Assembly: GCA_947475845.1 (NCBI GenBank)
Contig: CANJMO010000001.1
Coordinates: 62,001-126,000, forward strand
Direction: 5' to 3'
From: Caulobacteraceae bacterium
GTDB lineage: Bacteria > Pseudomonadota > Alphaproteobacteria > Caulobacterales > Caulobacteraceae
DNA length: 64,000 bases
The position numbers and the translations under genes are program-made. Shown here piece after piece: positions 30,471 through 51,531 of the stretch; positions within the stretch are counted from its first letter, which is position 1; the number at the start of each line of letters is the position of its first letter. The notes beneath the pieces were generated by a model. The model made no database searches and was not told the DNA's origin. It saw only the letters and a program-made list of their open reading frames with translations.

Positions 30471-30471
30471 C

Positions 30472-30714
30472 TCAGCCGCCGCTCATCGGCGGCAGGAAGG
30501 CGATCTCGTCGTTGGCGGCTAGAGCCACGTCTTCGCGCATCAGGGTCTTGTTGACGGCAGCTTGCACGCCCTTGCCGGCCAGGGCTTCGCCGAGGGCGGC
30601 GTCCTCGCGGTAAAGCAGATCGCGCAGGGCGGACAGGGTCGCGGGAGCGTCAATGGTTCGTTCGCGCCAGCCGGCAATGTCGCGCAGGCGGCCGAGCAGC
30701 ACGACCTTCATCAT
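30472..30714 (-). CDS. moaD: Molybdopterin synthase sulphur-carrier subunit MoaD
   Basis: This 80-residue ubiquitin-fold protein carries the thiocarboxylate that MoaE transfers to precursor Z. It ends in the required Gly-Gly (PPMSGG). MKVVLLGRLRDIAG and the AAVNKTLMREDVALAANDEIAFLPP end are typical MoaD. It lies 2 nt after moaA and 1 nt before moaE. The MoeB-type enzyme that activates the C-terminal glycine is not in this window. Confidence 0.96.
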   Translation of the reverse strand: MMKVVLLGRLRDIAGWRERTIDAPATLSALRDLLYREDAALGEALAGKGVQAAVNKTLMREDVALAANDEIAFLPPMSGG

Positions 30715-30716
30715 GG

Positions 30717-32575: not shown

Positions 32576-32652
32576 GGTCTCAGGCGATTGCGGTGGAACT
32601 CTTAGATGGGGCTCAAGATAGCATTTTTCACGGTGCACGACGAATTGGACGC

Positions 32653-34254
32653 CTAGTGGAACAGCACCGCCGCCTTGGTGAGCGTGATCCACACACCCCA
32701 GGCCAACGGCAGTACAACGACGGCCCAGGCAGCGGCGGTCATGCCGTCGAAGCGGCCCCGGCCGATGCCGCCGCCGTCCGAGGCGGCGGAGGTGGCGGTG
32801 ACGCTGATCTCCTGATGGGTCATGCGCCAACGCTCGGCCACCGGCTTGACCATTAGGTTGGCAAGGAAGCCCAGCACCAGCAGGCCGGCCAGGATCAGGA
32901 AGATTGGCGGATAGATGCCGGCGCGCGGGGCGCCCGCGGCGATCGCCCGGTCGCGCAGGACGGTGACGATGAACGGTCCCAGCACCCCCGCCGTCGACCA
33001 GGCGGTCAGCAGACGGCCGTGGATGGCGCCGACGAACTGGGTTCCGAACACGTCGGCCAGATAGGCCGGGACGGTGGCGAAGCCGCCGCCGTACATCGAG
33101 GTGGTCACGGCGAAGCTGAGGACGAAGGCGCCGAGGATCGCCGCTGTGGCGGACCAGTGGGCGACCACGCCGAAGATCACCGCGCCCAGCGCCAGCATGA
33201 CGGCGTAGGTGGTCTTGCGGCCCAGCCGGTCGGAGATCGAGGCCCAGAAGAAGCGGCCGCCGATGTTGAACAGGCTGAGCAGGCCGACGAACCCGGCGGC
33301 GACCGCCGCGGCGGCCTTCTTCTGGCTGTCGTCGAAATCGAGGAAGGCGACGGAGGGAGCGTCCACCAGCCGGCCGCCGAAGATCTCCTGGATCATGGGC
33401 GAAGCCACCCCGATGATGCCGATCGAGGCGGAGACGTTGAGCAGCAGCACGGTCCAGATCAGCCAAAATTGGGGGGTCTTGTGCGCGTCCTTCAGGTGGA
33501 CGTTGAAGGTCGAGATCAGGCGGCTGGAAGCGGCCGGGGCGGTCCAGCCTTCCGGCGACCAGCCGGTGGGCGGCACGCGGAAGCTGAGGGCGCCGCCGAT
33601 CATGAACAGGAAGTAGCCCCCCGCCAGGACCAGCAGGGTCTGCCAGACGCCGACTTCGGCGCTGCCGGCGAAACGCTTCATCAGGATGTCGGCCAGGGGC
33701 GAGCCGATCATGGCCCCGCCGCCGAAGCCCATGATCGCCATGCCGGTGGCCATGCCGCGCCGGTCGGGAAACCATTTGATCAGGGTCGAAACCGGCGTGA
33801 TGTAGCCGAGCCCCAGGCCGATACCGCCGAGCAGGCCCGCGCCCAGCCACAAGAGCCACAGCTGGTGGACGTAGACGCCGATGGCGCCAATGGCGATGCC
33901 GCCGGCCCAGCAGAAGGCGGCCACGACCCCGGCCTTGCGCGGCCCGGCTTTCTCGAGCCAGCCGCCCCACAGCGCCGCCGCCGAACCGAGCACGACGAAG
34001 AACAGGCTGTAGGTCCAGGTCAGGTCGCTGACCCGCCAGTCGCAGGTCGAGGTGGTCAGGGCGTCGCCGAGGGTCATGCCGGGACAGGTCAGGGCCTTGC
34101 CGACCCCCAGCGCCCGCGACAGCGGCAGCCAGAACACGCTGAAACCGTAGGCCATGCCGATGCACAGATGGATGGCCAGGGCGCAGGGCGGAATGAGCCA
34201 GCGGTTGAAACCCGGCTTGGCGACGATCGCCTCGCGGTCGAGGAATCCGGTCAT
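32653..34254 (-). CDS. MFS transporter of the oxalate:formate antiporter (OFA) family
   Basis: This 533-residue inner-membrane transporter has twelve or so helices. The start (RWLIPPCALAIHLCIGMAYGFSVFWLPLSRALG) and the paired MFS motifs (GGWLEKAGPRKAGVVAAFCWAGG; DRRGMATGMAIMGFGGGAMIGSPLAD) fit the OFA branch, as does the long central loop (about residues 215-250). A GGGAGG site precedes the ATG at 34254; the frame goes on upstream without one. Lying directly after the formate dehydrogenase genes and before fdhD, it most likely brings in formate or oxalate. Oxalate-degrading genes frc and oxc are not in the window, which favours formate. Confidence 0.9.
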   Translation of the reverse strand: MTGFLDREAIVAKPGFNRWLIPPCALAIHLCIGMAYGFSVFWLPLSRALGVGKALTCPGMTLGDALTTSTCDWRVSDLTWTYSLFFVVLGSAAALWGGWLEKAGPRKAGVVAAFCWAGGIAIGAIGVYVHQLWLLWLGAGLLGGIGLGLGYITPVSTLIKWFPDRRGMATGMAIMGFGGGAMIGSPLADILMKRFAGSAEVGVWQTLLVLAGGYFLFMIGGALSFRVPPTGWSPEGWTAPAASSRLISTFNVHLKDAHKTPQFWLIWTVLLLNVSASIGIIGVASPMIQEIFGGRLVDAPSVAFLDFDDSQKKAAAAVAAGFVGLLSLFNIGGRFFWASISDRLGRKTTYAVMLALGAVIFGVVAHWSATAAILGAFVLSFAVTTSMYGGGFATVPAYLADVFGTQFVGAIHGRLLTAWSTAGVLGPFIVTVLRDRAIAAGAPRAGIYPPIFLILAGLLVLGFLANLMVKPVAERWRMTHQEISVTATSAASDGGGIGRGRFDGMTAAAWAVVVLPLAWGVWITLTKAAVLFH

Positions 34255-34312
34255 GTGCTGCCTCCCGACGCGCCTTCTGCGAGGCGCTGTGCGGCCACCA
34301 TGGCGCCCGCCA

Positions 34313-34564
34313 CTACTTCTGCAAAGAAGCGATGGCTTCGCACGCCAGGGGATCGAGACCCTCGCCGCCGGACTCGACATGGGCGCGGATTTTGGCGCGC
34401 ATGCGCGGATCCCAGAAGTCGGCGATGTGTTTGGCCATGCCCTTGACCGCCTGATCGAGCGGCCGGGCGACGAAGAACTTGCCGATCTGGTTGGCCATGT
34501 AGATCAGCCGCTCATCACTGGTGGTGGTGATGTGCTCTTCATCGTCGAACTGCGAATGGCCCAT
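34313..34564 (-). CDS. fdsD: Formate dehydrogenase delta subunit FdsD
   Basis: This 83-residue protein follows fdsA by 2 nt and matches the small delta subunits: DERLIYMANQIGKFFVA near residue 20 and VKGMAKHIADFWDPRMRAKI near residue 42 are the conserved blocks. FdsD proteins help assemble or stabilise the NAD-dependent formate dehydrogenase and are thought to aid cofactor binding. It is the last gene of the fds operon before the OFA transporter. Confidence 0.93.
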   Translation of the reverse strand: MGHSQFDDEEHITTTSDERLIYMANQIGKFFVARPLDQAVKGMAKHIADFWDPRMRAKIRAHVESGGEGLDPLACEAIASLQK

Positions 34565-34566
34565 GG

Positions 34567-37455: not shown

Positions 37456-37460
37456 GGGTC

Positions 37461-39020
37461 TTACTCCGCCGCCTCAAGCCGTGCTTTGGGCCGGCCGAAA
37501 TCTTCGGGGAAATGGGTTAAGGCGCTCATCACCGGATAGGGGGTGAACCCGCCGAGGGCGCAAAGCGATCCGAACTTCATGGTGTTGCAGAGGTCCTCGA
37601 TCAGCACGAGGTTGTCCTCGCGGTCCTCGCCGGCCGCGATCTTGTCGAGCACCTCGACGCCGCGGGTCGAGCCGATGCGGCAGGGGGTGCACTTCCCGCA
37701 GCTTTCCACGGCGCAGAACTCCATGGCGAAACGGGCCTGCTTGAGCATGTCGGCAGTGTCGTCGAACACTGTGACCCCGGCGTGGCCGATCAGCCCGTCC
37801 TTGGCCGCGAAGGCTTCGTAGTCGAACGGGGTGTCGAACAGGGCCGGGGGAAAGTAGGCGCCCAGCGGCCCGCCGACCTGCACCGCCCGCACCGGGCGGC
37901 CGGAGTCCGTACCGCCGCCGATGACATTGACGATCTCGCCCAGGGTTACGCCGAACGGGGTCTCGTACAACCCACCGTTCTTGATGTTGCCGGCCAGCTG
38001 GATTGGCATGGTCCCGCGCGAACGGCCCATGCCGTAGTCGCGATAGGCGTCGAAGCCCTCGGCCAGGATGTAGGGGACGGCGGCCAAAGAGAGGACGTTG
38101 TTGATCACCGTGGGCTTGCCGAACAGGCCCTTGTGCGCCGGTAGCGGCGGCTTGGCGCGGACCAGGCCGCGCTTGCCTTCCAGGCTCTCCAGCAGGGAGG
38201 TTTCCTCGCCGCAGACATAGGCCCCCGCGCCCACGCGCACGTCCATGTCGAAGTCGTAAGCGCTGCCGCCGACGCCCTTGCCGAGCAGGCCGCGCTTGCG
38301 GGCCGTGACGATGGCGTCGCGCATGGCGGCGACGGCGAAGGGATATTCGGAGCGGATGTAGACGTAGCCGAAGGTGGCGCCGACGGCGATGCCGGCGATG
38401 GCCATGCCCTCGATCAGCTGGAAGGGGTCGCCTTCCATGACCATGCGGTCGGCGAAGGTGCCGCTGTCGCCCTCGTCGGCGTTGCAGACGATGTATTTCG
38501 TCGGGCCCGTCGTTTCAGCGACCGTCTTCCACTTGATGCCGGTGGGGAAGCCCGCCCCGCCGCGCCCGCGAAGGCCGGACTGGAACACTTCCTCGACGAT
38601 CGCCTTGGGACCGAGCTCCAGCGCGCGCGCCAGGCCCTTCATGCCGCCGTGGGCGACGTAGTCGTCGAACGACTGCGGATCGGTGATGCCGTTGCGGGCG
38701 AAGGTCAGGCGGGTCTGGCTCTTGAAGAACGGCAGCTCTTCGGGTTTGCCGACACACAGGGCGTGGGGCGCGCCGTCGAACAGTCCGGCGGCGACCAGGG
38801 CTTTGACGTCCTCGGGAAACACCGGGCCGTAGCCGATCCGGCCATTGGCGGTCTCGATCTCCACCAGAGGCTCGATGCTGAACAGGCCGCGCGAGCCGTT
38901 GCGCACGATCTCGATGGTCATGGAGCGCTTGGCGGCTTCGATGGCCAGGGTGCCGGCCACCTCGTCGGCGCCGAGCGCGACCGAATTCATGTCGCCGGGA
39001 ACGTAGACGTGCAGGCTCAT
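37461..39020 (-). CDS. fdsB: Formate dehydrogenase NADH/FMN subunit FdsB
   Basis: This 519-residue NuoF-like subunit passes electrons from the iron-sulphur chain to NAD+. The NAD site is GLRGRGGAGFPTGIKWK (about residues 164-180), the FMN site NADEGDSGTFADR (about 197-209), and the [4Fe-4S] ligands lie in ESCGKCTPCRIGSTRG (about 436-451). An N-terminal thioredoxin-like extension (about residues 1-120) is fused, as in other soluble FDHs. The ATG at 39020 overlaps the fdsG stop by 4 nt. It lies 5 nt before fdsA. Confidence 0.97.
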   Translation of the reverse strand: MSLHVYVPGDMNSVALGADEVAGTLAIEAAKRSMTIEIVRNGSRGLFSIEPLVEIETANGRIGYGPVFPEDVKALVAAGLFDGAPHALCVGKPEELPFFKSQTRLTFARNGITDPQSFDDYVAHGGMKGLARALELGPKAIVEEVFQSGLRGRGGAGFPTGIKWKTVAETTGPTKYIVCNADEGDSGTFADRMVMEGDPFQLIEGMAIAGIAVGATFGYVYIRSEYPFAVAAMRDAIVTARKRGLLGKGVGGSAYDFDMDVRVGAGAYVCGEETSLLESLEGKRGLVRAKPPLPAHKGLFGKPTVINNVLSLAAVPYILAEGFDAYRDYGMGRSRGTMPIQLAGNIKNGGLYETPFGVTLGEIVNVIGGGTDSGRPVRAVQVGGPLGAYFPPALFDTPFDYEAFAAKDGLIGHAGVTVFDDTADMLKQARFAMEFCAVESCGKCTPCRIGSTRGVEVLDKIAAGEDREDNLVLIEDLCNTMKFGSLCALGGFTPYPVMSALTHFPEDFGRPKARLEAAE

Positions 39021-39493
39021 CGTACGGTCTCCGCCATCAGAGCATCGAAGCGCGCGGGCGTCAGGCGGGCGTGCGGGCGGCCGTCGATCAGGGCGTTGGG
39101 GCCCGAGGCGCAAAGTCCCAGGCAGTAGATCGGCTCCAGCGAGACCTCGCCGCGGCCATGACCGTGGGCGTCGATCTTCATGCCCAAGCGCTGCTCGGCA
39201 TGCTCGGTCAGGGCGCGGCTGCCGCGCGATTGGCAGGCTTCGGCCTGGCACAGCTTGACCACATGGCGCGGCGCTGGGTGGCGGCGGAAGTCATGGTAGA
39301 AGGTCAGCACCCCGTGCACGTCGGCGCGCGACAGGTTGAGGATGCCGGCGATCAGGGGCACGGCCTCGTCGGGCACCCAACCGAAGGTCTCCACCAAAGC
39401 GTGCAGGATGGGCATCAGCGCGCCCTCCTTGTCGGCATGGGCGGCGATCACCTCGACGGCTTTCTCGGGGCTCCAGGCGCTGTAGTCGGACAT
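39017..39493 (-). CDS. fdsG: Formate dehydrogenase gamma subunit FdsG (NuoE-like)
   Basis: This 158-residue thioredoxin-like [2Fe-2S] protein carries the four ligands in LCQAEACQSRG (C-x4-C, about residues 86-91) and YCLGLCASGP (C-x3-C, about 122-126). LVETFGWVPDEAVPLIAGILNLSRADVHGVLTFYHDF matches NuoE. It is the first gene of fdsGBAD and is divergent from xdhC; the 63-bp gap between them must hold both promoters, but I see no clear motif there. Confidence 0.96.
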   Translation of the reverse strand: MSDYSAWSPEKAVEVIAAHADKEGALMPILHALVETFGWVPDEAVPLIAGILNLSRADVHGVLTFYHDFRRHPAPRHVVKLCQAEACQSRGSRALTEHAEQRLGMKIDAHGHGRGEVSLEPIYCLGLCASGPNALIDGRPHARLTPARFDALMAETVR

Positions 39494-39556
39494 GACGTCT
39501 CCACAAACTCAGGCCCACAAAGCGCCAACGGCCGCAATAATCAACGGCGAAACTAT

Positions 39557-40747
39557 ATGCCGCGATCGGATATGACTATCGACGTTGTAATCATTGAGAA
39601 TTTTGAGCCTGAGGCCGGGCTGTCTGACCCCGCGACATGCGTGTATCGTTTGCCGGAGCCACTGACGGGACGCTTGGTGCAAGAGACCGCCGCACAACAG
39701 CTTCTGGACACCGACTGGTCGCTGCCGGCGTGGCCGGTGTTTGGCGTGCAATCGGACGTGCGCCAGGCGTTGGCGCAGGCCGTGGCCGCCGGCCGTCCCG
39801 TGGTGTTGGCGACCTTGCATACCCATGACGGCGCGGCCCCCCTGGGCGAAGGCGCGCAGATCCTATTCGACGGCGGCGCTGTCGCAGGATTTCTATCCGG
39901 CGGCTGCGTCGAGGGCGATGTCGCCATCCATGCTCAGACGGTGCTGTCCGACGGCGCGCCGCGCTGGCTGATCTACGGACGCGGCGGGCCGCCGGATATC
40001 CAGCTGCTGTGCGGATCGCGGATCGAGGTCCTGCTGGAGCGGATCGCTCCTGACGACGAGGCCGCCGGCCGCCTTCTGGCCCTCACCGACGCCCGCCGTC
40101 CGGCGCTGTGGCTCAGCGACGGACGGGCGCACGCCTGCCTGGCCGAGGGAGAGGATGGCGCGGGCCTGACCCCCACCCTCAGCGCGGCGCTGCAGCGCGC
40201 CGCCGAAAAGCCGTCGGTCAGCGGCGCGACGCCCGAGGCTTTGTTTCGCCGCCACACGCCCCGCCGGCGGCTGGTGGTGGTCGGCGGCGACCCGATCACT
40301 CTGGCGGTGGCCAAGCTGGCGTTCGAGGCCGGATTCGAGACCGCGCTGGTGCGGCCCAAGGGGCCTTCCGTTCCGCCGCCTCTGCCAGGGGTGCGCTATT
40401 TCCGGGGCAAGCCGGGCGAAGCCTTCGCCGCACTGGGCATGGACGCCTTCACCGCCGTGGCCATCGCCACCCACGACATCGACATCGACCATGCCGCCTT
40501 GTGCGCGGTCCTGCCGAGCGAGGCGGGATATGTCGGGGCCTTGGGCAGCCGCCGGCGCCTGCCCGAACGGATCGCGCGTCTTCAGACCTCGGGCCTGACA
40601 GAGACGGATATCGCCAAGCTGCACGCTCCTATCGGCCTCAGCATCGGCGCCCGCTCTCCGTGGGAAGTGGCGGTTTCCGTGGTCGCCGAGGTAATCCAGG
40701 CGTTCAAGGCCCAGGACGCCGCGCGGACCTGGCCCGCCGCCGCTTGA
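39557..40747 (+). CDS. xdhC: XdhC family molybdenum-cofactor insertion protein
   Basis: This 396-residue protein has an N-terminal XdhC/CoxI domain with the signature FLSGGCVEGDVAIHAQ (about residues 113-128) and LIYGRGGPPD, and a C-terminal Rossmann domain (RRRLVVVGGDPITLAVAKLAFEAGFETALVRP, about 236-267; YVGALGSRRRLPERIARL, about 324-341). XdhC proteins bind sulphurated cofactor and hand it to xanthine-oxidase-family apoenzymes. The first ATG is used; a second ATG five codons on is possible. Its TGA overlaps the TTG start of the mocA-like gene. Confidence 0.93.
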   Translation: MPRSDMTIDVVIIENFEPEAGLSDPATCVYRLPEPLTGRLVQETAAQQLLDTDWSLPAWPVFGVQSDVRQALAQAVAAGRPVVLATLHTHDGAAPLGEGAQILFDGGAVAGFLSGGCVEGDVAIHAQTVLSDGAPRWLIYGRGGPPDIQLLCGSRIEVLLERIAPDDEAAGRLLALTDARRPALWLSDGRAHACLAEGEDGAGLTPTLSAALQRAAEKPSVSGATPEALFRRHTPRRRLVVVGGDPITLAVAKLAFEAGFETALVRPKGPSVPPPLPGVRYFRGKPGEAFAALGMDAFTAVAIATHDIDIDHAALCAVLPSEAGYVGALGSRRRLPERIARLQTSGLTETDIAKLHAPIGLSIGARSPWEVAVSVVAEVIQAFKAQDAARTWPAAA

Positions 40748-41331
40748 GCGAGTTCCACGCCCTGGTCCTGGCCGCCGGTTTCGGTTCGCGGTTCTCTGTC
40801 GAAAGAACGGGGGGCGGCAAGCTCTTGGCGCCCTGGCGTGGCGGGGCCCTGATCGACGGGGCGCTCGACGCCGCCATGGCCGCCCCGGTGCGCGACGTGA
40901 CGGTGGTGGTCGGCGCCGATCCCGCCGTGCAGGCTCACGCCGCCGCGCGCTGCGACGTGCGCATCGTCCACGCCTCCGATCATGCCCTGGGTCTGTCCGC
41001 CTCGCTCAAGGCCGGCATTGCCTCTCTGCCCCCGACGGCGCAGGGGGCGCTGGTATTTCTCGGCGACATGCCGCTGATCCCGCAGGCCGTGCTGCGTCCC
41101 CTGGTGCAAGCCGTCGTTGACGGGGCGCCGGCCTCGGTTCCGGTGTGGCAAGGCCGCCAGGGCCACCCCGCCTGCCTGTCCGCCGCGCTGTTCGGCCAGA
41201 TCCTGGCGCTGGAGGGCGACCGCGGGGCGCGGTCGGTGCTGGACGCCCTCGGCGACAGGCTGGTCCTGATCGAGGCCCCGGACGACGGAATTCTGCTCGA
41301 TGTCGACCGGCCGCAGGATGTTCCACTTTAG
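40744..41331 (+). CDS. mocA: MocA-like molybdopterin cytidylyltransferase
   Basis: This 195-residue nucleotidyltransferase has the start LVLAAGFGSRF (about residues 6-16) with KLLAPW following, GLSASLKAGI, and the metal-binding LGDMPLI (about 105-111). These features fit MobA-like proteins of the MocA subgroup, which attach CMP to molybdopterin for xanthine-oxidase-family enzymes. The start is a TTG overlapping the xdhC stop (TTGA); no ATG or GTG gives a full N-terminal motif. Cotranscription with xdhC fits the same pathway. Specificity for CTP over GTP is inferred from the neighbour. Confidence 0.87.
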   Translation: MSEFHALVLAAGFGSRFSVERTGGGKLLAPWRGGALIDGALDAAMAAPVRDVTVVVGADPAVQAHAAARCDVRIVHASDHALGLSASLKAGIASLPPTAQGALVFLGDMPLIPQAVLRPLVQAVVDGAPASVPVWQGRQGHPACLSAALFGQILALEGDRGARSVLDALGDRLVLIEAPDDGILLDVDRPQDVPL

Positions 41332-41387
41332 AACCGTCGCCGGTTTCGGCTATCCATGACGGCAGGTTCAAGGAGCGCGTAGGTGGC

Positions 41388-42872
41388 ATGGCGGATCGGA
41401 TGCAGGCAGGCGCGCCCGAGGTCAGCGACGGCCTGGTGCTGTTCGGCGGCAACGGCGATCTGGCCCTGCGCATGCTGTTCCCCTCGCTATGCTTCCTGGA
41501 GGCCGAGGGCCTGCTGCCGCGCGGCATGCCGATCCTCGCGGTGGGGCGCTCGGCCCTGGACGACGACGCCTTCCGCGCTCTGGTTCGCGAGGCGCTGGGC
41601 AAGCGCGCACCCGAGGCGGCGGCAGCCGCCGAAAGCCTGCTCGCCCGCACCCACTACAGCGCCGTCGATGTGACCCACATCAATGAGATCGAACGGATCG
41701 GCGCCCGGATGGGCGAGCTGAACATCATTCGGCCGCTCTACTACCTCTCGGTCTCGCCCAGCCTCTACAGCCCGATCTGCGAGGGCCTGCTGGCCGCGCA
41801 GCTGGCCGGCGAGGGGGCCCGAGTGGTGATGGAGAAGCCGATCGGCAAGGACCTGGCCTCCTCGCGGGTGATCAACGATCAGGTGCAGGCGGCCTTCAGC
41901 GAGGAGCGGATTTTCCGCATCGACCACTACCTCGGCAAGGAGACGGTGCAGAACCTGATCGCCCTGCGCTTCGCCAACACCCTCTTCGAGCCGCTGTGGA
42001 ACAACCTGACCATCGACCACGTCCAGATCACCATCGCCGAGACCCAGGGGGTCGGCGACCGCTGGCCCTACTACGACGAGTACGGGGCCATGGGCGATAT
42101 GGTGCAGAACCACATGATGCAGCTGCTGTGCCTGGTGGCGATGGAGCCACCTTCGGACCTAGCGCCCGACTCCGTGCGCAACGAGAAGGTCAAGGTGCTG
42201 CGCTCCCTGCGCCCGATCGGCCGGGCCGAGGTGGCGCATAACGTCGTGCGGGGCCAGTACACCAAGGGCGTCGTCGGCGGCGAGCAGGTGGCGGGCTACC
42301 TGGAGGAAAAGGGCTCGGACAGCGAGACCGAGACCTTCGTCGCCATCCAGGCCCATATCGACAACTGGCGCTGGGCGGGGGTGCCGTTCTATCTGCGCAC
42401 CGGCAAGCGCCTGCCCGACCGCGACACAGAGATCTTCATCCAGTTCAAGGGCGTGCCGCACTCCATCTTCGCCGGCGAGAGCCGCGAGGATCTGGTTCCG
42501 AACCAGCTCCTGATCCGCCTGCAGCCCGAGGAAGACATCGTGCTGCGACTGATGAACCAGCGCCCGGGCCTGAGCCTCGGCGGCATGCGGCTGGAAAGCC
42601 TGCCGCTCAGTCTCAGCCTGAAGAACGTGCACAAGACGCCCGCCCGCCGCCGCATCGCCTACGAGCGCCTGATCCTGGACGCGCTGAGCGGCGACTCCAC
42701 CCTGTTCGTGCGCCGCGACGAGGTCGAGAAGGCCTGGGAGTGGGTCGACGGGGTCAACGACGCCTGGCGCCGCGCGGGCCAGCCGCCGCGTCCCTATGCG
42801 GCCGGATCGTGGGGGCCGGGGGGCGCCTTCGCCCTGATCGAGCGTGAAGGCCGGGCGTGGCACGAGGATTGA
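41388..42872 (+). CDS. zwf: Glucose-6-phosphate 1-dehydrogenase
   Basis: This 494-residue enzyme makes 6-phosphogluconolactone, feeding the Entner-Doudoroff route. The nucleotide-binding loop is VLFGGNGDLALRM (about residues 16-28), a variant of the usual GASGDLAKRK. Next are YYLSVSP, VVMEKPIGKDLASS (about 147-160), and the catalytic RIDHYLGKETVQN (about 179-191). VPFYLRTGKRL and the FIQFKGVPH region complete it. The ATG at 41388 is used because the family starts just before the loop. The pgl, edd and eda genes that often accompany zwf are not adjacent. Confidence 0.95.
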   Translation: MADRMQAGAPEVSDGLVLFGGNGDLALRMLFPSLCFLEAEGLLPRGMPILAVGRSALDDDAFRALVREALGKRAPEAAAAAESLLARTHYSAVDVTHINEIERIGARMGELNIIRPLYYLSVSPSLYSPICEGLLAAQLAGEGARVVMEKPIGKDLASSRVINDQVQAAFSEERIFRIDHYLGKETVQNLIALRFANTLFEPLWNNLTIDHVQITIAETQGVGDRWPYYDEYGAMGDMVQNHMMQLLCLVAMEPPSDLAPDSVRNEKVKVLRSLRPIGRAEVAHNVVRGQYTKGVVGGEQVAGYLEEKGSDSETETFVAIQAHIDNWRWAGVPFYLRTGKRLPDRDTEIFIQFKGVPHSIFAGESREDLVPNQLLIRLQPEEDIVLRLMNQRPGLSLGGMRLESLPLSLSLKNVHKTPARRRIAYERLILDALSGDSTLFVRRDEVEKAWEWVDGVNDAWRRAGQPPRPYAAGSWGPGGAFALIEREGRAWHED

Positions 42873-42991
42873 TCATGCCGGATTGGAATGTGATCTATTC
42901 CGCTGGCGGTATTGCCGCCTAGGGTTACCGACCGTAATTCCCATCATGCGGAACGGCGACGCTCGATCGCGCCGCCCAGGAGGAAGTCGTC

Positions 42992-43831
42992 ATGGCCCAG
43001 CCTATCAAAGCCCTCGCCATCGCCCTTTGCGCCGCCGGCGCTGTCCTGGCCGGCGCCAGCGCCCGCGCCGCGGACGCCGCGCCCGCCGCCTCGACTCTGC
43101 CGGATTGGGCGGGCGTCTGGATGCCGCGCGAGCGCAATCTGTTCGACGCCTCGGCCCTGCCGGAGAACCAGAAGGCTTCGCCCACCGATCCCCTCAAGTT
43201 CTTCGAAGCCAGCTATCTGCGCGAGTATCCGCCCTACCGGCCAGAATGGGAGGCGCGCTACGTCAAGACCCTGACCGACACCCAGAACGGCATCGGCTCG
43301 GATCCCACCGCCGCCTGCCTGCCCGGCGGCTTCCCGCGGATATTGGGCACCCCCTATCCGGTGGAGTTCATGGTCCAGCCCAAGTTGGTGGTGATGCTGT
43401 TCGAGGCCAACAGCCAGATGCGCCACATCTATACCGACGGCCGTAAGCACCCGGTGGACCTGGAGCCGACCTTCAACGGCCATTCGATCGGCCATTGGGA
43501 GGGCGACACCCTGGTGGTCGACACGACCGGCCTGCGCGGCGACACCATCTTCGACGTTTCCGGCGCCCCGCATTCCGACCAGCTACATGTCAGCGAGCGC
43601 ATCCGCCGCATCCCCGGGGGCGTCATCGAGGACAAGATCGTGGTCGAGGATCCCAAGGCCTTCACCAAGCCGTGGCTGGTGACACGCAGCTTTCAGCTGC
43701 ACCCGGACTGGGATTTGACCGAATACGTCTGCGAGGAAAACCAGCGCAATCCGATCCTGCCGGACGGCACGACCGGGTTCATCGGTCCGCACGAAAAGGT
43801 CACGGACGCTGCCGGCCCGGCAAAGCACTGA
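42992..43831 (+). CDS. Exported protein of an unnamed family (IYTDGRKHP type), paralogue of the protein at 53.8 kb
   Basis: This 279-residue protein has a signal peptide (ALAIALCAAGAVLAGASARA, cleavage near residue 27). The conserved core is RHIYTDGRKHPVDLEPTFNG, then HSIGHWEGDTLVVDTTGL (about residues 147-185), and VSERIRRIPGGVIEDKIVVEDPKAFTKPW. The same blocks occur in the exported protein at 53808-54635, so the two are paralogues within 11 kb. I recognise the family as recurrent in sphingomonads and Caulobacteraceae but know no function. It is followed by a convergent small lipoprotein gene overlapping by 32 nt. Confidence 0.85.
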   Translation: MAQPIKALAIALCAAGAVLAGASARAADAAPAASTLPDWAGVWMPRERNLFDASALPENQKASPTDPLKFFEASYLREYPPYRPEWEARYVKTLTDTQNGIGSDPTAACLPGGFPRILGTPYPVEFMVQPKLVVMLFEANSQMRHIYTDGRKHPVDLEPTFNGHSIGHWEGDTLVVDTTGLRGDTIFDVSGAPHSDQLHVSERIRRIPGGVIEDKIVVEDPKAFTKPWLVTRSFQLHPDWDLTEYVCEENQRNPILPDGTTGFIGPHEKVTDAAGPAKH

Positions 43832-44210
43832 CTTCTTCGGCGGTCAGCCGGCGCAGGGAGACGGCCGGGCAGCTCTGAACCCCGATGTTGTTGGGCGCGA
43901 TCACCTCGACGTCCAGACCCGAGCAGATGAAATCCGAGCCGCGCGAGCGCAGGCCGATCCTCTGGCTGAAGTCGATGTCGCCGCACGGGGCCAGCAGCTT
44001 GATCTGGTAGTAGTCGCGGATGCCGACTTGCAGGTTGACCGTGGTGCGGTCCCCCGCCGCCCAGCTGGTGACGTCGGCGGATCGGAAGCAGGAGCGGCCC
44101 TCGGCTGAGGCAGTCCGGATCTGAGGACCAGCGCCGGAGTCGGCGCAGGCGGCGGCTGCCGCCAATGCGGTCACGGCGAGGACTTTGAAGGGCCAGGTGG
44201 ACAGGCGCAT
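43800..44210 (-). CDS. Small Cys-containing lipoprotein, DUF6491-like
   Basis: This 136-residue protein has a lipoprotein-type signal (VLAVTALAAAAACADSG). The mature domain contains four further cysteines (GRSCFRSADV, LLAPCGDI, DFICSGLD, VQSCPAVSL), probably two disulphides, and the RSCFRSADVTSW start is typical of the DUF6491 family, short periplasmic proteins of unknown function. The C-terminus overlaps the convergent exported-protein gene by 32 nt. Confidence 0.8.
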   Translation of the reverse strand: MRLSTWPFKVLAVTALAAAAACADSGAGPQIRTASAEGRSCFRSADVTSWAAGDRTTVNLQVGIRDYYQIKLLAPCGDIDFSQRIGLRSRGSDFICSGLDVEVIAPNNIGVQSCPAVSLRRLTAEEVSALPGRQRP

Positions 44211-44280
44211 GTCGGTCTCCCGCAGGGACGTTCCGATAGGATCGCGCCACCCTAGCTGAACCAGCGCTGAAGGTATCGTC

Positions 44281-45201
44281 CTAGGCGACTGGTCCGCCCG
44301 GCAAGGGCATGCGGTTGCGGAGGGCCATGGCGGCCTTCAGGGCGCTGGACCGGCGACGGATGGTCAGGCGCTCCACCGGAATGCAGCCGAACGCCTCGAT
44401 GAATTTGGCCCCGCTCGGCCGGAAATAGCTGTCGGAATCGAACATCAGGCCCAGGCGGTGGGCCAGCAGGATGGCTTCCCACAGCAGCAGGCTGGCGGCG
44501 CCCCGCGCCTCGGGCGTGCCGTCCTGGGTCGCGCGAAGATAATAGAGCGTATAGGCGTCCCACACGACTATGGTGGCGGCCACGGTCTTGCCGGTGGCCT
44601 TGTTGGTGGCGGCGATGATGTGGTGCCGCGTGCGCTTGGACAGGGCTTCGTTAAGGCGATGGTACACCGCCCCGTCATGGTGGTTGAAGCGCCCCGCGCG
44701 GCCGAGATTGCGTTCATAGAGGGCGTAGAATTCCATCAAGGGCATGCCCCCACTGATGGTCAGGTTCAACTTGGCTCGGCGCACGCTGTTGCGCGCCTTG
44801 TCCTTCAGTCCGCTCCAGAGATTGTCGATCGAAGTGCGGGCGTCCAGGCGGTAGGTGTAGCGCACGCCGATTTCGAACCCGGCGAGGTTGTAGTCCATGG
44901 CGTGCGGCTTGCCGGGCTCCAGCGCCTGCAGGAAGCCGGACGCGCGCGGCATCTGGGCCAGGCCGGTCTCGATCAGCTTGCGCCTCTGCGACGCCTGCGA
45001 CACGGCCTTGCCTTCGGGCAGGCGGATCACCGGGCCGAGGGTGTGGGTCATCATCGGCGACCCGAGCAGCGAGAAGCCGCACCATTGGCGAAGCATGAAC
45101 GGCTACCACAGATAGGCGTTGTCTCCGTCCCCGGCGGTCACCGAGCTGTAGCGATTGTCCGACACTGCCTCCAGCCACCAGGGCTGTTGGAAGATGGTCA
45201 T
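44281..45201 (-). pseudogene. FemAB/GNAT-fold acyltransferase gene interrupted by an in-frame TAG
   Basis: Two open frames in the same phase join into one protein split by a single TAG at 45103-45105 (codon 33 from the ATG at 45201). Before it is IFQQPWWLEAVSDNRYSSV, the usual start of FemAB-like proteins, and after it PFMLRQWCGFSLLGSPMMTHTLGPVI, then NSVRRAKLNLTISGG and GAASLLLWEAILLAHRLGLMFDSDSYF. Restored, the product is about 306 residues, typical of the FemAB-related BioF2-like acetyltransferase family. The stop may be a true nonsense mutation (for example from TGG or CAG) or a sequencing error. A second start at 45096 could still make a 271-residue protein lacking the first strand. The start codon is uncertain; 45342 is also possible. 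Confidence 0.75.
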
Positions 45202-45493
45202 GTCGGAATCGTTGTCGCCGATTACGGACAGGGGCGTTCGAGGCGTCGCGGAGTCGGCAAGGCTCTCCCCGGCAACCACGGCTACCTGGGCGTCAGCGGT
45301 CTGGCTGCGCCGGGGGGCGCGCGGCATGGTTGAACCATCCATCTCATGGGCAATTCTGACGGGAGGCCACTAACTGTTTGATAACGGGGGTCGTCCAGCC
45401 CCCGGCGGTTGAATTTCCGTCTATTTGGGCCGCGAGGCTAGGGATAAAACGCCGCAGGGCCGCCACAACTCCGCCGTGCACGCAGGCCGCCGG

Positions 45494-45520
45494 TGATCCA
45501 ACTACGGCCAAGCTGCGTAT
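45494..45520 (+). promoter_or_regulatory. Candidate ECF sigma (RpoE/ECF11-like) promoter of chrR
   Basis: TGATCC (45494-45499) and CGTAT (45516-45520) are 16 bp apart. They resemble the -35 TGATCC and -10 CGTA-type elements of promoters used by sigma factors that are controlled by ChrR. The -10 ends 8 bp before the chrR ATG, so a transcript from it would be leaderless or nearly so. Only one copy is seen, and the cognate sigma gene is not nearby; this is inference from motif and position. Confidence 0.5.
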
Positions 45521-45528
45521 CGGGCAGT

Positions 45529-46221
45529 ATGGAAACAGGTGCGAGCACAGGCGGCCCCGGTGAGCAGACGGCGTCCGGCCAGGCCTTGCGCCATCCCACC
45601 GAGGTGGTGCTGGCCGGCTACGCTTCCGGAGCTTTGGGCGACGGGCCGAGCCTGACGGTGTCCGCTCATCTTGACCGCTGTCCGTCTTGCCGCGCCCGTG
45701 TCGGCCTGTTCGAGGCGGTCGGCGGCGCACTTTTGACGGACGTCCCCGAAGCCGGGCTGGAAGAGGGCGCCTTGGCCCGCGCCCTGGCCCGGATCGAGCG
45801 GACACCGGCTTCGCTCCGCGCCAGCGCGCCCGTTCCCCTGCCGCCCGGCGGCATCGTCCTGCCCCGCGCCCTGCGGCGCCGCACATTCGGACCGCGCCGC
45901 TGGGTGGCGCCGGGGCTGTGGGTCGCGCCGGTCCGATCCAACGCCGCCGACGGCTGGCGCACCTATCTTCTGCGCATGCCCAGGGGCGGATCGGTGCCGC
46001 AGCACGGCCACAACGGGCCTGAGTTAACCGTCGTCCTGGAGGGCGCCTTCGTCGAAGACGCAATCGTCCACGCGGCAGGCGATTTCGCCGAGAGCGGCGA
46101 AGGTCACGAACATCATCAGGCGGTTCACGGCGATGAGGCCTGTGTGTGTCTGATCTCAGGCCGGGGCGGCATCAGGGCCAATGGGCTGCTGCGGCTGATC
46201 CAGCCGTTCATCGGGGTTTGA
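45529..46221 (+). CDS. chrR: ChrR-type zinc-binding anti-sigma factor with cupin domain (orphan)
   Basis: This 230-residue protein has an N-terminal ZAS domain with HLDRCPSC (about residues 48-55, the H-x3-C-x2-C zinc motif) and a C-terminal cupin domain (about 120-220) with HGHNGPELTVVLEG and GDFAESGEGHEHHQAVHGDE. This is the ChrR architecture, in which the cupin part is needed for release of the sigma factor after singlet-oxygen damage. The start at the ATG is preferred over GTG 45493 because that GTG overlaps the presumed promoter. The rpoE-like sigma gene that usually precedes chrR is absent; the neighbour upstream is the broken FemAB gene. Confidence 0.85.
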   Translation: METGASTGGPGEQTASGQALRHPTEVVLAGYASGALGDGPSLTVSAHLDRCPSCRARVGLFEAVGGALLTDVPEAGLEEGALARALARIERTPASLRASAPVPLPPGGIVLPRALRRRTFGPRRWVAPGLWVAPVRSNAADGWRTYLLRMPRGGSVPQHGHNGPELTVVLEGAFVEDAIVHAAGDFAESGEGHEHHQAVHGDEACVCLISGRGGIRANGLLRLIQPFIGV

Positions 46222-46259
46222 GCCGGGTTTCGGCTCTGAAGCGGGGTTGTAGCGTGGGG

Positions 46260-47004
46260 ATGCTGCTGAGTTTTCTGATGGCGATGGGGGCTGCGGTGCG
46301 GGCCCGCGCCACGCGTAACCTTGCCTACGGGACACGGCCTGGAGCGAGGCTGGACGTCTATGCGCCGATCGGCGCCGATGGCGAGGCCACCGGTGGTGGT
46401 GTTCGCCGACTTCGGCCGCAGGCCCGGCGCCCGGCGCCATGCGTTCCGCTTCGTCGGCCAGACCCTGGCCATGCGCGGCTTCGTCACCGTGATCCCGAAC
46501 CTACGCGGCGACGCCCGGATGCCATGCACAGACTCGACGGCCGATCTGGCTTTGGCGGCGGCCTGGGCCAAGGCGCATTGCGGGGGCTATGGCGGGGATT
46601 CCGGCCGGATGTTCCTGATGGGCCATGCCGGTGGGGCGCACTGCGCGGCCATGCTGGCGTTGGATCCCGCGGGGCTGGGCGCGGTGGGCATGACCCCTGA
46701 CGATCTGCGCGGGGCCATCGGCATTTCCGGCATCTACGACGCCCAGCCGGCGGGGGCTCCGGCCGATCACGCCGATCCGTCGGCGCCGCCGATGCTGCTG
46801 ATCGCCGGCCAGCGGGACCATGTGAATCCGGGGCACACCAACCGCCTGGCCCGCGCCTTGCGCACGGTCGGCGGTCAGGTGGCCGAAATTCACTATCCCA
46901 AGTTGGGCGACAGATTAGGGCTGACCCGGCAGCTGCGCTACCGGGCCACCGCCCTAGACGAGGTCGAACGGTTCGTTCGCCTCTACAGCCTGACGAGAGG
47001 CTGA
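46260..47004 (+). pseudogene. Alpha/beta hydrolase (esterase-like), frameshifted and missing its nucleophile
   Basis: The N-terminal part (RNLAYGTRPGARLDVYAPIGADGEA) is in one frame and the rest (PPVVVFADFGRRPGARRH to the end) in the next, so one base is missing near 46385-46395. Joined, it is an esterase of the BD-FAE/arylformamidase-like kind, about 245 residues. The usual G-x-S-x-G nucleophile site reads GHAGG, with Ala (46627-46629) for Ser; the HGGG-type oxyanion motif is DFGRR; and the C-terminal His region reads YPKLGDRLGL, with Asp where His is expected. So it is probably dead as an enzyme. Its stop lies 4 bp before the convergent gcrA stop. Confidence 0.7.
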
Positions 47005-47008
47005 GCCT

Positions 47009-47512
47009 CTAGATGTAGCGGCGCAGCGAGCGCGCCAGCTCCGTCGCACCGGTGCGGCCGGCCTTCTTCTGCTGCGGCTGATAAGCTACCCGCGCGTGGT
47101 CCATGCAGTAGGGGCCTTCACGGTCCGAGCGGCGGCCGCAGAAGGTGAAGCCGTCGGACGACGGGTCGCCGATCGGCCACTTGCACATGTGCGCGCCCAG
47201 GGTCAGCACCGTGGCCGAACCCGGCTCTTCGGCGACGTAGGGCTGGATCGGCTGGCTGGAGGCCATCGACGGCTCGATGGTCCGGCGCGGGGCCGGAGCG
47301 GTGGACACCGCGGGGCGCGGCGCGCGCGGGGCCTTGAATACGGTGCGCTGGGGTTGCGAGGGTGTCGCGCGGCCCGACAGGCCCAGGCGGTGCACCTTGC
47401 CGATCACGGCGTTGCGGGTCACCCCGCCTAGCTGTTTGGCGATCTGACTGGCGCTGAGCCCGTCAAGCCACAGCTTCTTCAACGTCTCGACCCGTTCGTC
47501 TGTCCAGCCCAT
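47009..47512 (-). CDS. gcrA: GcrA cell-cycle regulator
   Basis: This 167-residue protein begins GWTDERVETLKKLWLDGLSASQIAKQLGGVTRNAVIGKVHRLGL, the N-terminal DNA-binding domain of GcrA, and ends with the C-terminal sigma-70-binding part (CKWPIGDPSSDGFTFCGRRSDREGPYCMDHARVAYQP) with its conserved cysteines. In Caulobacter GcrA binds sigma-70 and promoters methylated at GANTC. The ATG at 47512 follows a good GGAGGGG site; an upstream frame is open but unrelated. The 161-bp region upstream contains a CtrA-like site. It is the strongest taxonomic marker in the window. Confidence 0.97.
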   Translation of the reverse strand: MGWTDERVETLKKLWLDGLSASQIAKQLGGVTRNAVIGKVHRLGLSGRATPSQPQRTVFKAPRAPRPAVSTAPAPRRTIEPSMASSQPIQPYVAEEPGSATVLTLGAHMCKWPIGDPSSDGFTFCGRRSDREGPYCMDHARVAYQPQQKKAGRTGATELARSLRRYI

Positions 47513-47610
47513 ATCATCCCCTCCAAGACCCCGTTTCGGACGTCGCGTCACCCGAGACGCTAGATGTTGCGTCCTGTGGGCCGCCTCTCGTTGGCCACCC
47601 ACAACATACA

Positions 47611-47625
47611 GTAACAAAAACCTAA
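47611..47625 (-). promoter_or_regulatory. Candidate CtrA box upstream of gcrA
   Basis: On the minus strand TTAG (47625-47622), 7 bp and TTAC (47614-47611) match the CtrA consensus TTAA-N7-TTAA at 6 of 8 positions. It lies about 100 bp upstream of the gcrA ATG. In Caulobacter crescentus gcrA is repressed by CtrA, which fits. The match is short, so it is a candidate only. Confidence 0.4.
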
Positions 47626-47673
47626 CGGCACACAATAGGCGCCCTCTGGTCTGTCCACAGGATCAATATCTAG

Positions 47674-48552
47674 ATGGGGATAGACTTGACCGCGGCGGAC
47701 TTGCGAAACCCCGCGACCGGGCGCACATCACGCATCATGCGCGACGCCGCCGACAGCATCAGCCCGCCTCAGCCGCGGCGTTATCCGGGCCCCAACTGGA
47801 TCGGCCTGAAGGCCCTGTATCTCAAGGAGGTCCGCCGCTTCTGGAAGGTGGGCATGCAGACCGTCGGCGCCCCGGTGCTGTCGAGCCTGCTCTATATGCT
47901 GGTGTTCGCGGTGGCGACGTCCGGCGCCCGGCCGCAGATCGGCGGCGTGCCGTTCGTGGCCTTCGTCGCGCCGGGCCTGATCATGATGACCGTGCTCAAC
48001 AACGCCTTCGCCAACTCGTCCTCGTCCCTGCTGGGGCTGAAGATGCAGGGGCTGACGCAGGACATCCTGACCCCGCCGCTGTCGCCTGGCGAGCTGACCG
48101 CCGGCTTCATCCTCGGGGCCATGACCCGCGGGATCCTGGTGGGTCTGGTGACCTGGGCGGCGGTGATGCCATTCTCGCACCTGGGGGCGCCGCACCTGTG
48201 GGCGATCGCCTACTACGGCGTCGCCGCCTGCGTGGTGATGGCCTCGATGGGGGTGATGGCGGCGTTGTGGGCGGTCAAGTTCGACCACCTGGCCACGGTG
48301 ACCAACTTCGTGGTCCTGCCCCTGACCTTCCTGTCGGGCACCTTTTATTCGGTGGACCGCCTGCCTGAGCCGTTCCGCAGCTTCACCCGCTTCAACCCGT
48401 TCTTCTATCTGATCGACGGCTTCCGATACGGCTTCATCGGCCGCTCTGAGGGCCCGCTGCTGTTCGGCGGCGCCTTCGTCGCGGTGCTGTCTCTGGTGCT
48501 GCTGCTGGTCACCTGGCGGCTGTTCACCACCGGCTATCGGCTGAAGACCTAA
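47674..48552 (+). CDS. ABC-2 type transporter permease (orphan)
   Basis: This 292-residue protein has six transmembrane helices of the ABC-2 fold: VGAPVLSSLLYMLVFAVA, FVAPGLIMMTVLNNAFANSSSS, FILGAMTRGILVGLVTWAAV, YYGVAACVVMASMGVMAALWA, FVVLPLTFLSGTFYSVDRLP and VAVLSLVLLLVTWRLF. FLSGTFYSVDRLPEPFRSFTRFNPFFYLIDGFRYG is a strong family motif of NodJ/YadH-like permeases. No ATPase gene is adjacent, so it must pair with one elsewhere. The start is uncertain: 47674 is the first ATG, 47737 gives a shorter N-terminus. It is divergent from gcrA. Confidence 0.87.
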   Translation: MGIDLTAADLRNPATGRTSRIMRDAADSISPPQPRRYPGPNWIGLKALYLKEVRRFWKVGMQTVGAPVLSSLLYMLVFAVATSGARPQIGGVPFVAFVAPGLIMMTVLNNAFANSSSSLLGLKMQGLTQDILTPPLSPGELTAGFILGAMTRGILVGLVTWAAVMPFSHLGAPHLWAIAYYGVAACVVMASMGVMAALWAVKFDHLATVTNFVVLPLTFLSGTFYSVDRLPEPFRSFTRFNPFFYLIDGFRYGFIGRSEGPLLFGGAFVAVLSLVLLLVTWRLFTTGYRLKT

Positions 48553-48566
48553 CGGGACGCCTGTTC

Positions 48567-48591
48567 GGCGGCCGGACGTCAGTCCGCCGCC
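48567..48591. terminator. GC-rich hairpin between convergent genes
   Basis: GGCGG, a bulged C, CGGAC, a GTCA loop, then GTCCG and CCGCC form a 10-bp stem. It lies between the ABC permease and the convergent outer-membrane factor, whose stop codon is in the loop. No U-run follows, so intrinsic termination is unproven; it could still act as a barrier for both directions. Confidence 0.3.
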
Positions 48592-49997
48592 GTCGCCACA
48601 TAGAGCCGCACCGCATCCGCATAGCGCCGCCCCTGGGCCAGGGCGTAGGCCTGCCGGGTTTCCGAGAGGCGCCGCTGCGACTGGGTGACTTCCATCAGGG
48701 CGCCGCCGCCGTTCTGATAGGCGAACTGGGTATTCTTCAAATCGGCCTCGGCCACGCGGCGCGCCTCATCCTGGGCGGCCAGGGCCTGCTCGTCGCTGGC
48801 CAGGGCCTGCAGGGCGTCGGCCACCTGGGTGAAGGCGGTCAGCACGGTCTGCTGGTAGCGGGCGGCGGAGGCCTTGGCGGCGGCCACGGCTGAGCGCTGC
48901 TGCGCCTTGAGCTGTTTGCGGCCGAGGATCGGCACGCTGACCGAGGGGCCGATGTTCCAGCCGCTGAAATCGTAGTCGAAGATTTTTTCCGGGGTCAGCG
49001 AGGTCTGGGTCAGGCCGGCGTTGAGCTTGATGTCGGGATAGAGCTTGGCCTCCTGCACCCCGATGTTGGCGGTGGCGGCGTGCAGGTCCGCCTCGGCGGC
49101 CAGGATGTCGGGACGGCGGCGGACCAGCTGCGACGGCAGCTCCACCGGAATGGCGGCGGGCAGGCGCAGGGCGGCGAGGTCGAAGTCCGGGGCCGACCAG
49201 TCGGCCGGAGCGTGGCCGACCAGCAAAGCCAGGGCGTGGCGGGCTTCGGACAGGCGGCGATTGAGGTCCGGCAGCAGGGCCTGGTCCTCGACCATCTGGG
49301 CGCGGGCGCTGACCTGGGCGGCCGGCGCGGCGCCGCCGCCCTGCTCCAGCTTGCGCACGAACCCCAGGTTCTTGCGGTCTTCCTCGATCACGCTTTGCAC
49401 CGCCGCGATCTGGGCGCGCAGGGTGGCGATCTGCACCGCCTGCATGGCGACATTGCCGGTCAGGGTCAGGTAGACGGCCTTGGCGCGCCAGGCCTCGGCC
49501 TGGGCCTTGGCTTGGGCGTCCTCCAGCGCGCGGTGGCGGCCGCCGAACAGGTCCAGGTCATAGGAGACCGTGCCGCCGATCGAGTACTGGTTGATGGTCG
49601 GACTGGGGAAGCCCTCGAAGCCAAAGGCGGCGGCGTTGATCTTGGTGCGCTGGCCGAAGGCGTTCAGTTGCGCATCGGGTTGGAGCGCGCCTTTTGCGGC
49701 GCCGGCGGCCTCCATCGCCTGGGTCAGGGCCGCGTCGGCCTGCACCAGGGTCGGGCTGTCGGTCAGGGCCTGGCGCACCACCCGGTCCAGATCGGTCGAG
49801 CCAAACGCCTGCCACCAGCCGCCGGCGTCATCGGCGCTGGCGCTGATCTGCGGGACCTTGGACGCGGCGTCGCCCTGCATGGCGTAGCCGGCCGTGGTCG
49901 GGACGGCGGGGACCTGGAATTCCGGTCCGACCGTGGCGCAGGCAGACAGGGTCAGGGCGGCCAGGGCGGCCGTGGCGAAGAGGCGGGGTCTATTCAT
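48579..49997 (-). CDS. Outer-membrane efflux factor (NodT/OprM type lipoprotein) of the EmrAB pump
   Basis: This 472-residue TolC-family channel has a lipoprotein signal ending in ALTLSACATVG. It has two OEP repeats; the first contains WWQAFGSTDLDRVVRQALTDSPTLVQADAALTQAMEA and the second the NodT-type LVRRRPDILAAEADLHAATANIGVQEAKLYPD. The ATG at 49997 overlaps the MFS stop by 8 nt and is preferred over an upstream TTG. It is the third gene of a minus-strand tripartite pump operon. Confidence 0.94.
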   Translation of the reverse strand: MNRPRLFATAALAALTLSACATVGPEFQVPAVPTTAGYAMQGDAASKVPQISASADDAGGWWQAFGSTDLDRVVRQALTDSPTLVQADAALTQAMEAAGAAKGALQPDAQLNAFGQRTKINAAAFGFEGFPSPTINQYSIGGTVSYDLDLFGGRHRALEDAQAKAQAEAWRAKAVYLTLTGNVAMQAVQIATLRAQIAAVQSVIEEDRKNLGFVRKLEQGGGAAPAAQVSARAQMVEDQALLPDLNRRLSEARHALALLVGHAPADWSAPDFDLAALRLPAAIPVELPSQLVRRRPDILAAEADLHAATANIGVQEAKLYPDIKLNAGLTQTSLTPEKIFDYDFSGWNIGPSVSVPILGRKQLKAQQRSAVAAAKASAARYQQTVLTAFTQVADALQALASDEQALAAQDEARRVAEADLKNTQFAYQNGGGALMEVTQSQRRLSETRQAYALAQGRRYADAVRLYVATAAD

Positions 49998-51531
49998 GGA
50001 CAACATTGGCGGGGTCCGGCTTGGCGGCGGCAGCGCGAGGCGCCTTCATCAGAAACAGCAGGGGCACGACAGCGACGGTGATCAGCACCATCAGCCAGAA
50101 GTCGTCGACATAGGCGACCATCGCCGACTGGCGGGTGATCTCGCCGTTGAGGGCGGCGGCGCCGGCCACGGTCGAGGGATTGAGCGCCGATCCGGCCAGT
50201 TGCATGGCCAGGTTCGGATCGCCGGCGTTGATGTGGCCGACCAGGCCCGAATGGACGGTCTCGACGTTGTTGGTCTGCAGCGCCACCACGATCGAGATGC
50301 CGGCCGACGAGCCGAGGTTGCGCACTAGGGTGAACACCGACGACCCTTCCGCGCGGTAGATCGGGCTGATGGTGGCGAAGGCCAGGGTGGTCAGGGGCAC
50401 GAAGATCAGGCCGGTGCCCAGGCCCTGGATCAGGGCGCTGATGATCAACGGCCCCGCCGTCATGTCCAGCGAGAAGCGGCTCATCATCCACGCCGCCCAG
50501 CCCGACAGGAACAGGCCGAACGCCACCAGCAGGCGCGAGTCCACCCGCCCGACCAGCTGGCCGACGATGAACATGGCGGCGAAAGCGCCCAGGCCCCGGG
50601 GCATCATGACCAGGCCGGTGGTGACCACCGGATAGCCCATCAGCACCTCCAGCATCGAGGGCAACAGGGCCATGCTGGAATAGAGCAATATGCCGAGGAA
50701 GAAGCCGACCACCGTAGCCACCACGAAGCTGCGGTCGCGCGCCAGCGCCCGGTCGAAGAACGGGTTCTTGGCCGTGATCGCGTGGACGGTGAACAGGTAG
50801 AGCGCCAGGCCCGCGACCACCATCTCGGTCCAGATTTCCCTGGAGTTCAGCCAGTCCTGGGTCGGGCCGCGGTCGAGCATCAGCTGAAAGGCGCCGATGA
50901 ACACGGTCAGCATGCCGAAGCCGAAGAAGTCGAACTTCTTGGGGATGTCGTGCTTGTTGTTGGAGATGAACATCCACACGCCGGTGTAGGCCAGAAGGCC
51001 AATCGGCACGTTGATGAAGAACACCCAGCGCCAGGTCAGGTTGTCGGTCAGCCAGCCACCCAGGGCCGGGCCCATGATCGGACCGAGGATGGCACCGGCC
51101 CCCCAGATGGCCATGGCCTGGCCCTGCTTCTCCTTGGGCCAGATATCCAGCAGCACCGCCTGCGACAGCGGGATCAGGGCGGCGCCGAACAGGCCTTGCA
51201 GCAGGCGGAAGCCGACGATCTCGGCCAGGCTGCCGGAGATGCCGCACAGGACCGAGGCCACGGTGAACCCGGCGATAGACACCAGGAACAGGAGCTTCCT
51301 GCCGATCCGCCCCGCCAGCCAGCCGGTCATCGGCGTCATGATGGTGGCGGCGACGATATAGGAGGTCAGCACCCAGGTGATCTGGTCCTGGGACGCCGAG
51401 ACGCTGCCCTGGATGTGCGGCAGGGCGACGTTGGCGATGGTGGTGTCCAGCGAGTTCATCACCGTGGCCAGCATGATGCTGATGGTGATGGCCCACTTGT
51501 TGGGCGCTCCGCTGTCGGCTCGGGCCAGCAT
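49990..51531 (-). CDS. DHA2-family MFS efflux transporter (EmrB-like)
   Basis: This 513-residue inner-membrane proton antiporter has about fourteen helices. The DHA2 signatures are visible: TTIANVALPHIQGSVSASQDQITWVLTSYIVAATIMTPMTGWLAGRIGRK (first three helices) and LLQGLFGAALIPLSQAVLLDIWPKEKQGQAMAIWGAGAILGPIMGPALGGWLTDNLTWRWVFFINVPIG (motif C, about residues 103-170). It starts 4 nt after the adaptor gene and works with that adaptor and the NodT-type channel. Substrates are likely hydrophobic or amphipathic compounds. Confidence 0.95.
   Translation of the reverse strand: MLARADSGAPNKWAITISIMLATVMNSLDTTIANVALPHIQGSVSASQDQITWVLTSYIVAATIMTPMTGWLAGRIGRKLLFLVSIAGFTVASVLCGISGSLAEIVGFRLLQGLFGAALIPLSQAVLLDIWPKEKQGQAMAIWGAGAILGPIMGPALGGWLTDNLTWRWVFFINVPIGLLAYTGVWMFISNNKHDIPKKFDFFGFGMLTVFIGAFQLMLDRGPTQDWLNSREIWTEMVVAGLALYLFTVHAITAKNPFFDRALARDRSFVVATVVGFFLGILLYSSMALLPSMLEVLMGYPVVTTGLVMMPRGLGAFAAMFIVGQLVGRVDSRLLVAFGLFLSGWAAWMMSRFSLDMTAGPLIISALIQGLGTGLIFVPLTTLAFATISPIYRAEGSSVFTLVRNLGSSAGISIVVALQTNNVETVHSGLVGHINAGDPNLAMQLAGSALNPSTVAGAAALNGEITRQSAMVAYVDDFWLMVLITVAVVPLLFLMKAPRAAAAKPDPANVVHE

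Follow-up and report, generated by a model that had tools for sequence, protein, structure and literature searches.

The sigma factor RpoE and its anti-sigma factor ChrR are a model for the sensing of singlet oxygen by bacteria. Sigma factor and anti-sigma factor are normally produced from one mRNA, and therefore the ratio between the two is fixed. According to a review of RpoE-ChrR systems, the core regulon consists of the rpoE-chrR operon and the genes for the synthesis of furan fatty acids (PMC6852236). Another report (PMC3818230) mentions that Rhizobium etli CIAT 652 has a homologue of chrR but no rpoE with it. The locus described here lies in a stretch of 64,000 nucleotides (the window) from a Caulobacteraceae bacterium, the assembly of which comprises 2.65 Mb in 101 contigs with a completeness of 98.7%; local errors may be present in this assembly.

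The orphan chrR (45529 to 46221, plus strand) is an intact reading frame, which begins with the ATG at 45529 and whose stop codon ends at 46221. Profile and structure matches identified its product as a zinc anti-sigma factor with a cupin-like C-terminal domain. The whole protein obtained 147.5 bits with the NCBIfam model TIGR02451 (curated cut-off 124.5 bits) and thus belongs to the ChrR anti-sigma family (AS11, the partner of ECF11); ChrR of R. sphaeroides (PDB 2Z2S) was matched with an E value of 9e-27, and the C-terminal domain scored 44.2 bits with Pfam Cupin_7. The cut-off of the equivalog model for Caulobacter ChrR (NF051881, 300 bits) was not reached by the orphan protein (146.3 bits); the score of a second ChrR from the same genome, encoded on contig C4 (see below), was likewise low (155.9 bits). 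The N-terminal zinc site H-x24-H-x3-C-x2-C is kept, with H22, H47, C51 and C54 aligning to H6, H31, C35 and C38 of R. sphaeroides ChrR. Also conserved are the cupin metal ligands H159, H161, E165 and H195 and the C-terminal cysteines C205 and C207. The roles as ligands of the zinc site and of the cupin site are those of the corresponding residues in the structure of R. sphaeroides ChrR. Owing to its conserved anti-sigma core, the orphan ChrR would be expected to bind and inhibit an ECF11 sigma factor. No sigma gene adjoins chrR at the window locus; a chrR without its adjacent sigma gene had been reported in the initial annotation, and both the identity of the gene, by TIGR02451 and 2Z2S, and the missing sigma neighbour were confirmed.

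Upstream of chrR, a FemAB/GNAT-type gene on the minus strand (44281 to 45327) contains one in-frame nonsense codon (TAG, 45103-45105) and is open in the sister species G025; this is the broken neighbour on the other strand which had been noticed before. Downstream, an alpha/beta hydrolase gene (BD-FAE-like; 46258 to 47004, plus strand) has a net +1 frameshift near 46388 and is read in two frames, 46254-46388 and 46390-47001. The hydrolase gene, which follows chrR in the operon of G025, is open there, and it is absent from the operon on contig C4.

The genus was sampled with three genomes. In G025, the only chrR is part of an operon rpoE-chrR-hydrolase-DUF1295-CFA, which is divergent from a FAD oxidase/DUF1365 pair and is located about 6 kb upstream of gcrA. 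Profile matches and synteny place gcrA in the window at 47009 to 47512 (minus strand), and with this landmark the window locus is the same as that of the G025 rpoE operon. Positions 29597-45234 of the window match contig C116 of G025 at 50000-66579 in the same order, 45592-46992 (chrR and hydrolase) match 69768-71156, and 47009-51186 (gcrA onward) match 77017-81185. Missing from the window are the blocks of G025 which contain FAD oxidase/DUF1365 and rpoE (66784 to about 69750) and DUF1295/CFA (71163-74741).

All the missing blocks are present on contig C4 of the assembly, of which positions 40180-47329 match G025 66784-74741 minus the hydrolase, with a chrR of its own. Contig C4 carries a complete operon (rpoE, chrR, DUF1295 and CFA-like methyltransferases) with the FAD oxidase/DUF1365 pair divergent from it; we read the CFA-like and neighbouring genes as corresponding to the known furan fatty acid genes of the core regulon. 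The search for an ECF11-type sigma gene elsewhere in the genome, as suggested in the initial annotation, was thus successful. The C4 chrR stands directly behind the ECF sigma gene, and its product is 65% identical to the orphan ChrR. Since this rpoE already possesses an adjacent chrR, the chrR in the window is an extra paralogue. A second ECF11 sigma factor as partner of the orphan was considered and rejected, because the C4 sigma factor was the single match in the genome at E ≤ 1e-30; the genome also has further ECF-type matches. Contamination as the source of contig C4 was rejected also, since the DNA that flanks its operon can be aligned with the genome of G025 at 77-88%. These flanks correspond to another contig of G025, which at that place is without the operon.

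Judged by synteny, what is left at the window locus derives from a second operon copy, since the chrR-hydrolase pair occupies the position of the G025 operon near gcrA; the rpoE promoter, chrR and the frameshifted hydrolase were kept. The alignments show the loss of rpoE, of the divergent FAD oxidase/DUF1365 pair and of the distal genes from the copy on the gcrA side. By this comparison, one operon has become two copies, each of which lost different parts, while chrR was retained in both. Acquisition of the orphan chrR from outside was rejected, because the locus is syntenic with G025 on both sides and the gene is closest to the chrR of G025. In a tree of ChrR sequences, built without row L019, the C4 and G025 proteins grouped together with the orphan outside (95/89); since alternatives were not rejected (AU p ~0.08), a clean order of the duplication and the species split was not taken from this tree. 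A protein-based search of the genome contigs returned no close relatives.

The promoter before the orphan chrR (45494 to 45520, plus strand) is of the RpoE (ECF11) type, TGATCC-N16-CGTAT, and is homologous to the rpoE promoter of G025. TGATCC (45494-45499) is followed by a 16-nt spacer (45500-45515), CGTAT (45516-45520), 8 nt and the ATG at 45529. This motif, with its -10 element 8 bp before the ATG, had been described in the initial annotation, and its coordinates (45494-45529) proved to be correct; the resemblance to promoters of ChrR-controlled sigma factors was also substantiated, as the same motif is found before rpoE on C4, in G025 and in the family. A segment of 33 nt including the motif is identical to the G025 rpoE promoter in 27 of 33 nt. 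Specific reading of a 16-nt spacer by the sigma factor is not expected. The spacers of the window and of G025 are identical in 11 of 16 positions (shuffle p 6e-4), and the highest spacer score for rpoE promoters of other genera in the set was ≤10.

A genome-wide search for TGATCY-N16-CGTA, which had also been proposed, yielded 11 sites in the 2.65 Mb genome and none with the reversed control. Genes of the ECF11 regulon lie just downstream of four of the 11 sites, namely the orphan chrR, rpoE, the FAD oxidase gene and a DNA photolyase gene. If all 11 sites were random, one of them would fall in the 100 nt before a given gene with a chance of about 2e-4, and at the spacing of 7-8 nt with a chance of about 4e-6. 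The distance from motif to ATG is 7 nt for rpoE on C4, about 27 nt for the FAD oxidase and 8 nt for the photolyase. At the DNA photolyase locus (L075; G000:C20:19814-19839), TGATCC-N16-CGTAT is located exactly 8 nt before the ATG, which is the spacing at the orphan chrR. An exact TGATCC-N16-CGTA at G000:C60:5655-5680 (L078) precedes by about 26 nt an open reading frame of 360 amino acids starting with MNQILPGTLHDATAEQLKK, which is a possible member of the regulon.

In 87 of 90 other distinct loci of the family, rpoE is directly upstream of chrR, and in this the orphan locus differs from them. The three exceptions (G168, G028 and the second copy in G193) had no rpoE-type promoter within 900 nt. 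Family chrR genes without adjacent rpoE and without an rpoE-type promoter are those at L084 9742-10410, L121 1601-2281 and L140 1610-2158. A lone chrR is not unique; a lone chrR with an rpoE promoter was seen only here among the inspected family loci. Of 20 operons inspected across the family, 16 have TGATCY-N16-CGTA ending 7-8 nt before the in-frame ATG of rpoE. An automated count of 87 rpoE-chrR pairs, which is approximate because the first ATG or GTG triplet after the motif was taken, gave the exact motif before 62 of the pairs, and for 45 of these the distance was 7 or 8 nt. This spacing suggests a leaderless rpoE mRNA conserved across most genera of the family. Because of the distance found in the inspected operons, the promoter of the orphan chrR is, by its architecture, inherited from rpoE. 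Since the orphan gene shares the arrangement of the rpoE promoter, its ATG stands at the position of the former rpoE ATG and is probably the former start codon of rpoE.

From this ATG onward, a new N-terminal stretch of about 20 codons (45529 to 45591, plus strand) lies between the promoter and the conserved ChrR body, at the site where rpoE was lost. No alignment with G025 was obtained from the promoter segment to position 45592, and the 63 nt from the ATG to the conserved ChrR body had no convincing match to the start or the end of rpoE. A Shine-Dalgarno sequence is not evident upstream of the orphan ATG; this and the spacing of 8 nt are both compatible with a leaderless mRNA, and the mRNA of the orphan chrR would be leaderless or nearly so. 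Such mRNAs are common in C. crescentus, where 375 were found (9.6% of the coding sequences; PMC4117421). The leaderless transcript proposed in the initial annotation is thus plausible from the spacing, but it is not peculiar to the orphan: short distances between promoter and rpoE ATG are widespread in the family, and therefore this feature appears to be the normal design of rpoE.

The codon substitutions in the orphan chrR look constrained. In comparison with the chrR of G025, differences at the three codon positions were 0.19/0.15/0.43 and the dN/dS ratio (NG86) was about 0.22; for the C4 and G025 genes a ratio of 0.32 was obtained. The purifying signal may be older than the loss of rpoE. 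Since both neighbouring genes carry a disabling change, the locus could be decaying, and rpoE and the distal genes are already gone; the orphan chrR might then be a gene recently freed from constraint and without present role, whose promoter survives by chance. When neutral change was simulated in a simple way, 55% of the runs at 0.05 substitutions per site ended without a stop codon in the frame, and thus a recent release, at 0.05 or less per site, is possible; at 0.25 substitutions per site, however, only 7% of the runs kept such a frame. Considering also that the intact chrR still encodes all ligands, that its substitutions are constrained, and that the promoter has survived losses on either side, we regard a mere decaying remnant as unlikely. 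The orphan and C4 proteins are 84% identical in the anti-sigma core and 63% in the cupin domain, and it could be supposed that the second ChrR binds RpoE via its conserved anti-sigma domain and answers another signal with a changed cupin-like domain, which would result in two brakes for one sigma factor. This appears quite improbable: the cupin ligands and C-terminal cysteines are unchanged, and lower conservation is a general property of the cupin domain (72% identity between C4 and G025), so that none of the differences in particular indicates a new signal.

The initial annotation had proposed a single feedback loop split over two loci, in which a lone chrR and a lone distant sigma factor control each other. 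Part of this proposal has stood, since the type of promoter fits and an ECF11-type sigma gene is present on another contig, which makes control from a distance plausible. As a single loop it can hardly be upheld, because the sigma gene on C4 is directly followed by its own chrR and this contig, as its flanks indicate, is not foreign. We consider it likely, with some confidence, that the chrR in the window is a remnant of an operon copy, from which the RpoE of C4 drives the production of a second anti-sigma factor and so adds to the negative feedback; the final step, the feedback through an RpoE-driven second ChrR, is one that we infer.

If a remnant of the operon indeed supplies a second ChrR, RpoE made from C4 would transcribe the orphan chrR in trans, in addition to the operon that encodes it. 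The position and architecture of the promoter are evident from the alignment; the former rpoE promoter should read straight into chrR, with transcription presumably starting at the old rpoE ATG or no more than a few bases away. If ChrR behaves here as in R. sphaeroides and C. crescentus, it would be inactivated by singlet oxygen or organic peroxides. Each activation of RpoE would add ChrR and no sigma factor, so that the negative arm would become stronger and the balance would tip in favour of shut-off; the response should then peak at a lower level, return faster or have a higher threshold. RpoE would thus probably switch on two brakes on itself and not one. More tentatively, it is conceivable that deletion of the sigma gene behind an autoregulated promoter converted a positive-feedback copy of the operon into a stand-alone, sigma-induced brake, which was kept by selection; reciprocal loss could then have reversed the sign of one feedback arm. 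A second ChrR which is apparently made from an rpoE promoter without the sigma factor represents a natural experiment on the effect of the ratio, and with G025, where an intact operon occupies this position, the question of the ratio between sigma factor and anti-sigma factor becomes testable.

In comparison with the RpoE(sigmaE)-ChrR systems (ECF11) of R. sphaeroides and C. crescentus (PMC6852236), the anti-sigma family, the zinc ligands and the two domains are the same. The ECF11-type promoter upstream of rpoE is shared as well, and so are core regulon genes (furan fatty acid/CFA-like methyltransferase, DUF1295, FAD oxidase), which are found in the operons of C4 and G025, with the photolyase gene elsewhere. 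In those species chrR is downstream of rpoE in one operon, whereas here one of two chrR genes is found alone behind an rpoE-type promoter. With the chrR of R. etli CIAT 652, the orphan shares the lack of an adjacent rpoE; the passage in PMC3818230 which mentions that gene does not report a promoter or a paralogue. RsiA2 of S. meliloti (PMC6180224) is likewise an orphan anti-sigma paralogue, acting on RpoE2 and encoded away from the sigma gene, which has its own anti-sigma factor. RsiA1 and RsiA2 belong to the general stress response (ECF15) and are released by partner switching, whereas ChrR is a direct sensor with zinc and cupin sites. In contrast to RsiA2, the origin of the orphan chrR can be traced here, to the loss of the sigma gene from a copy of the operon.
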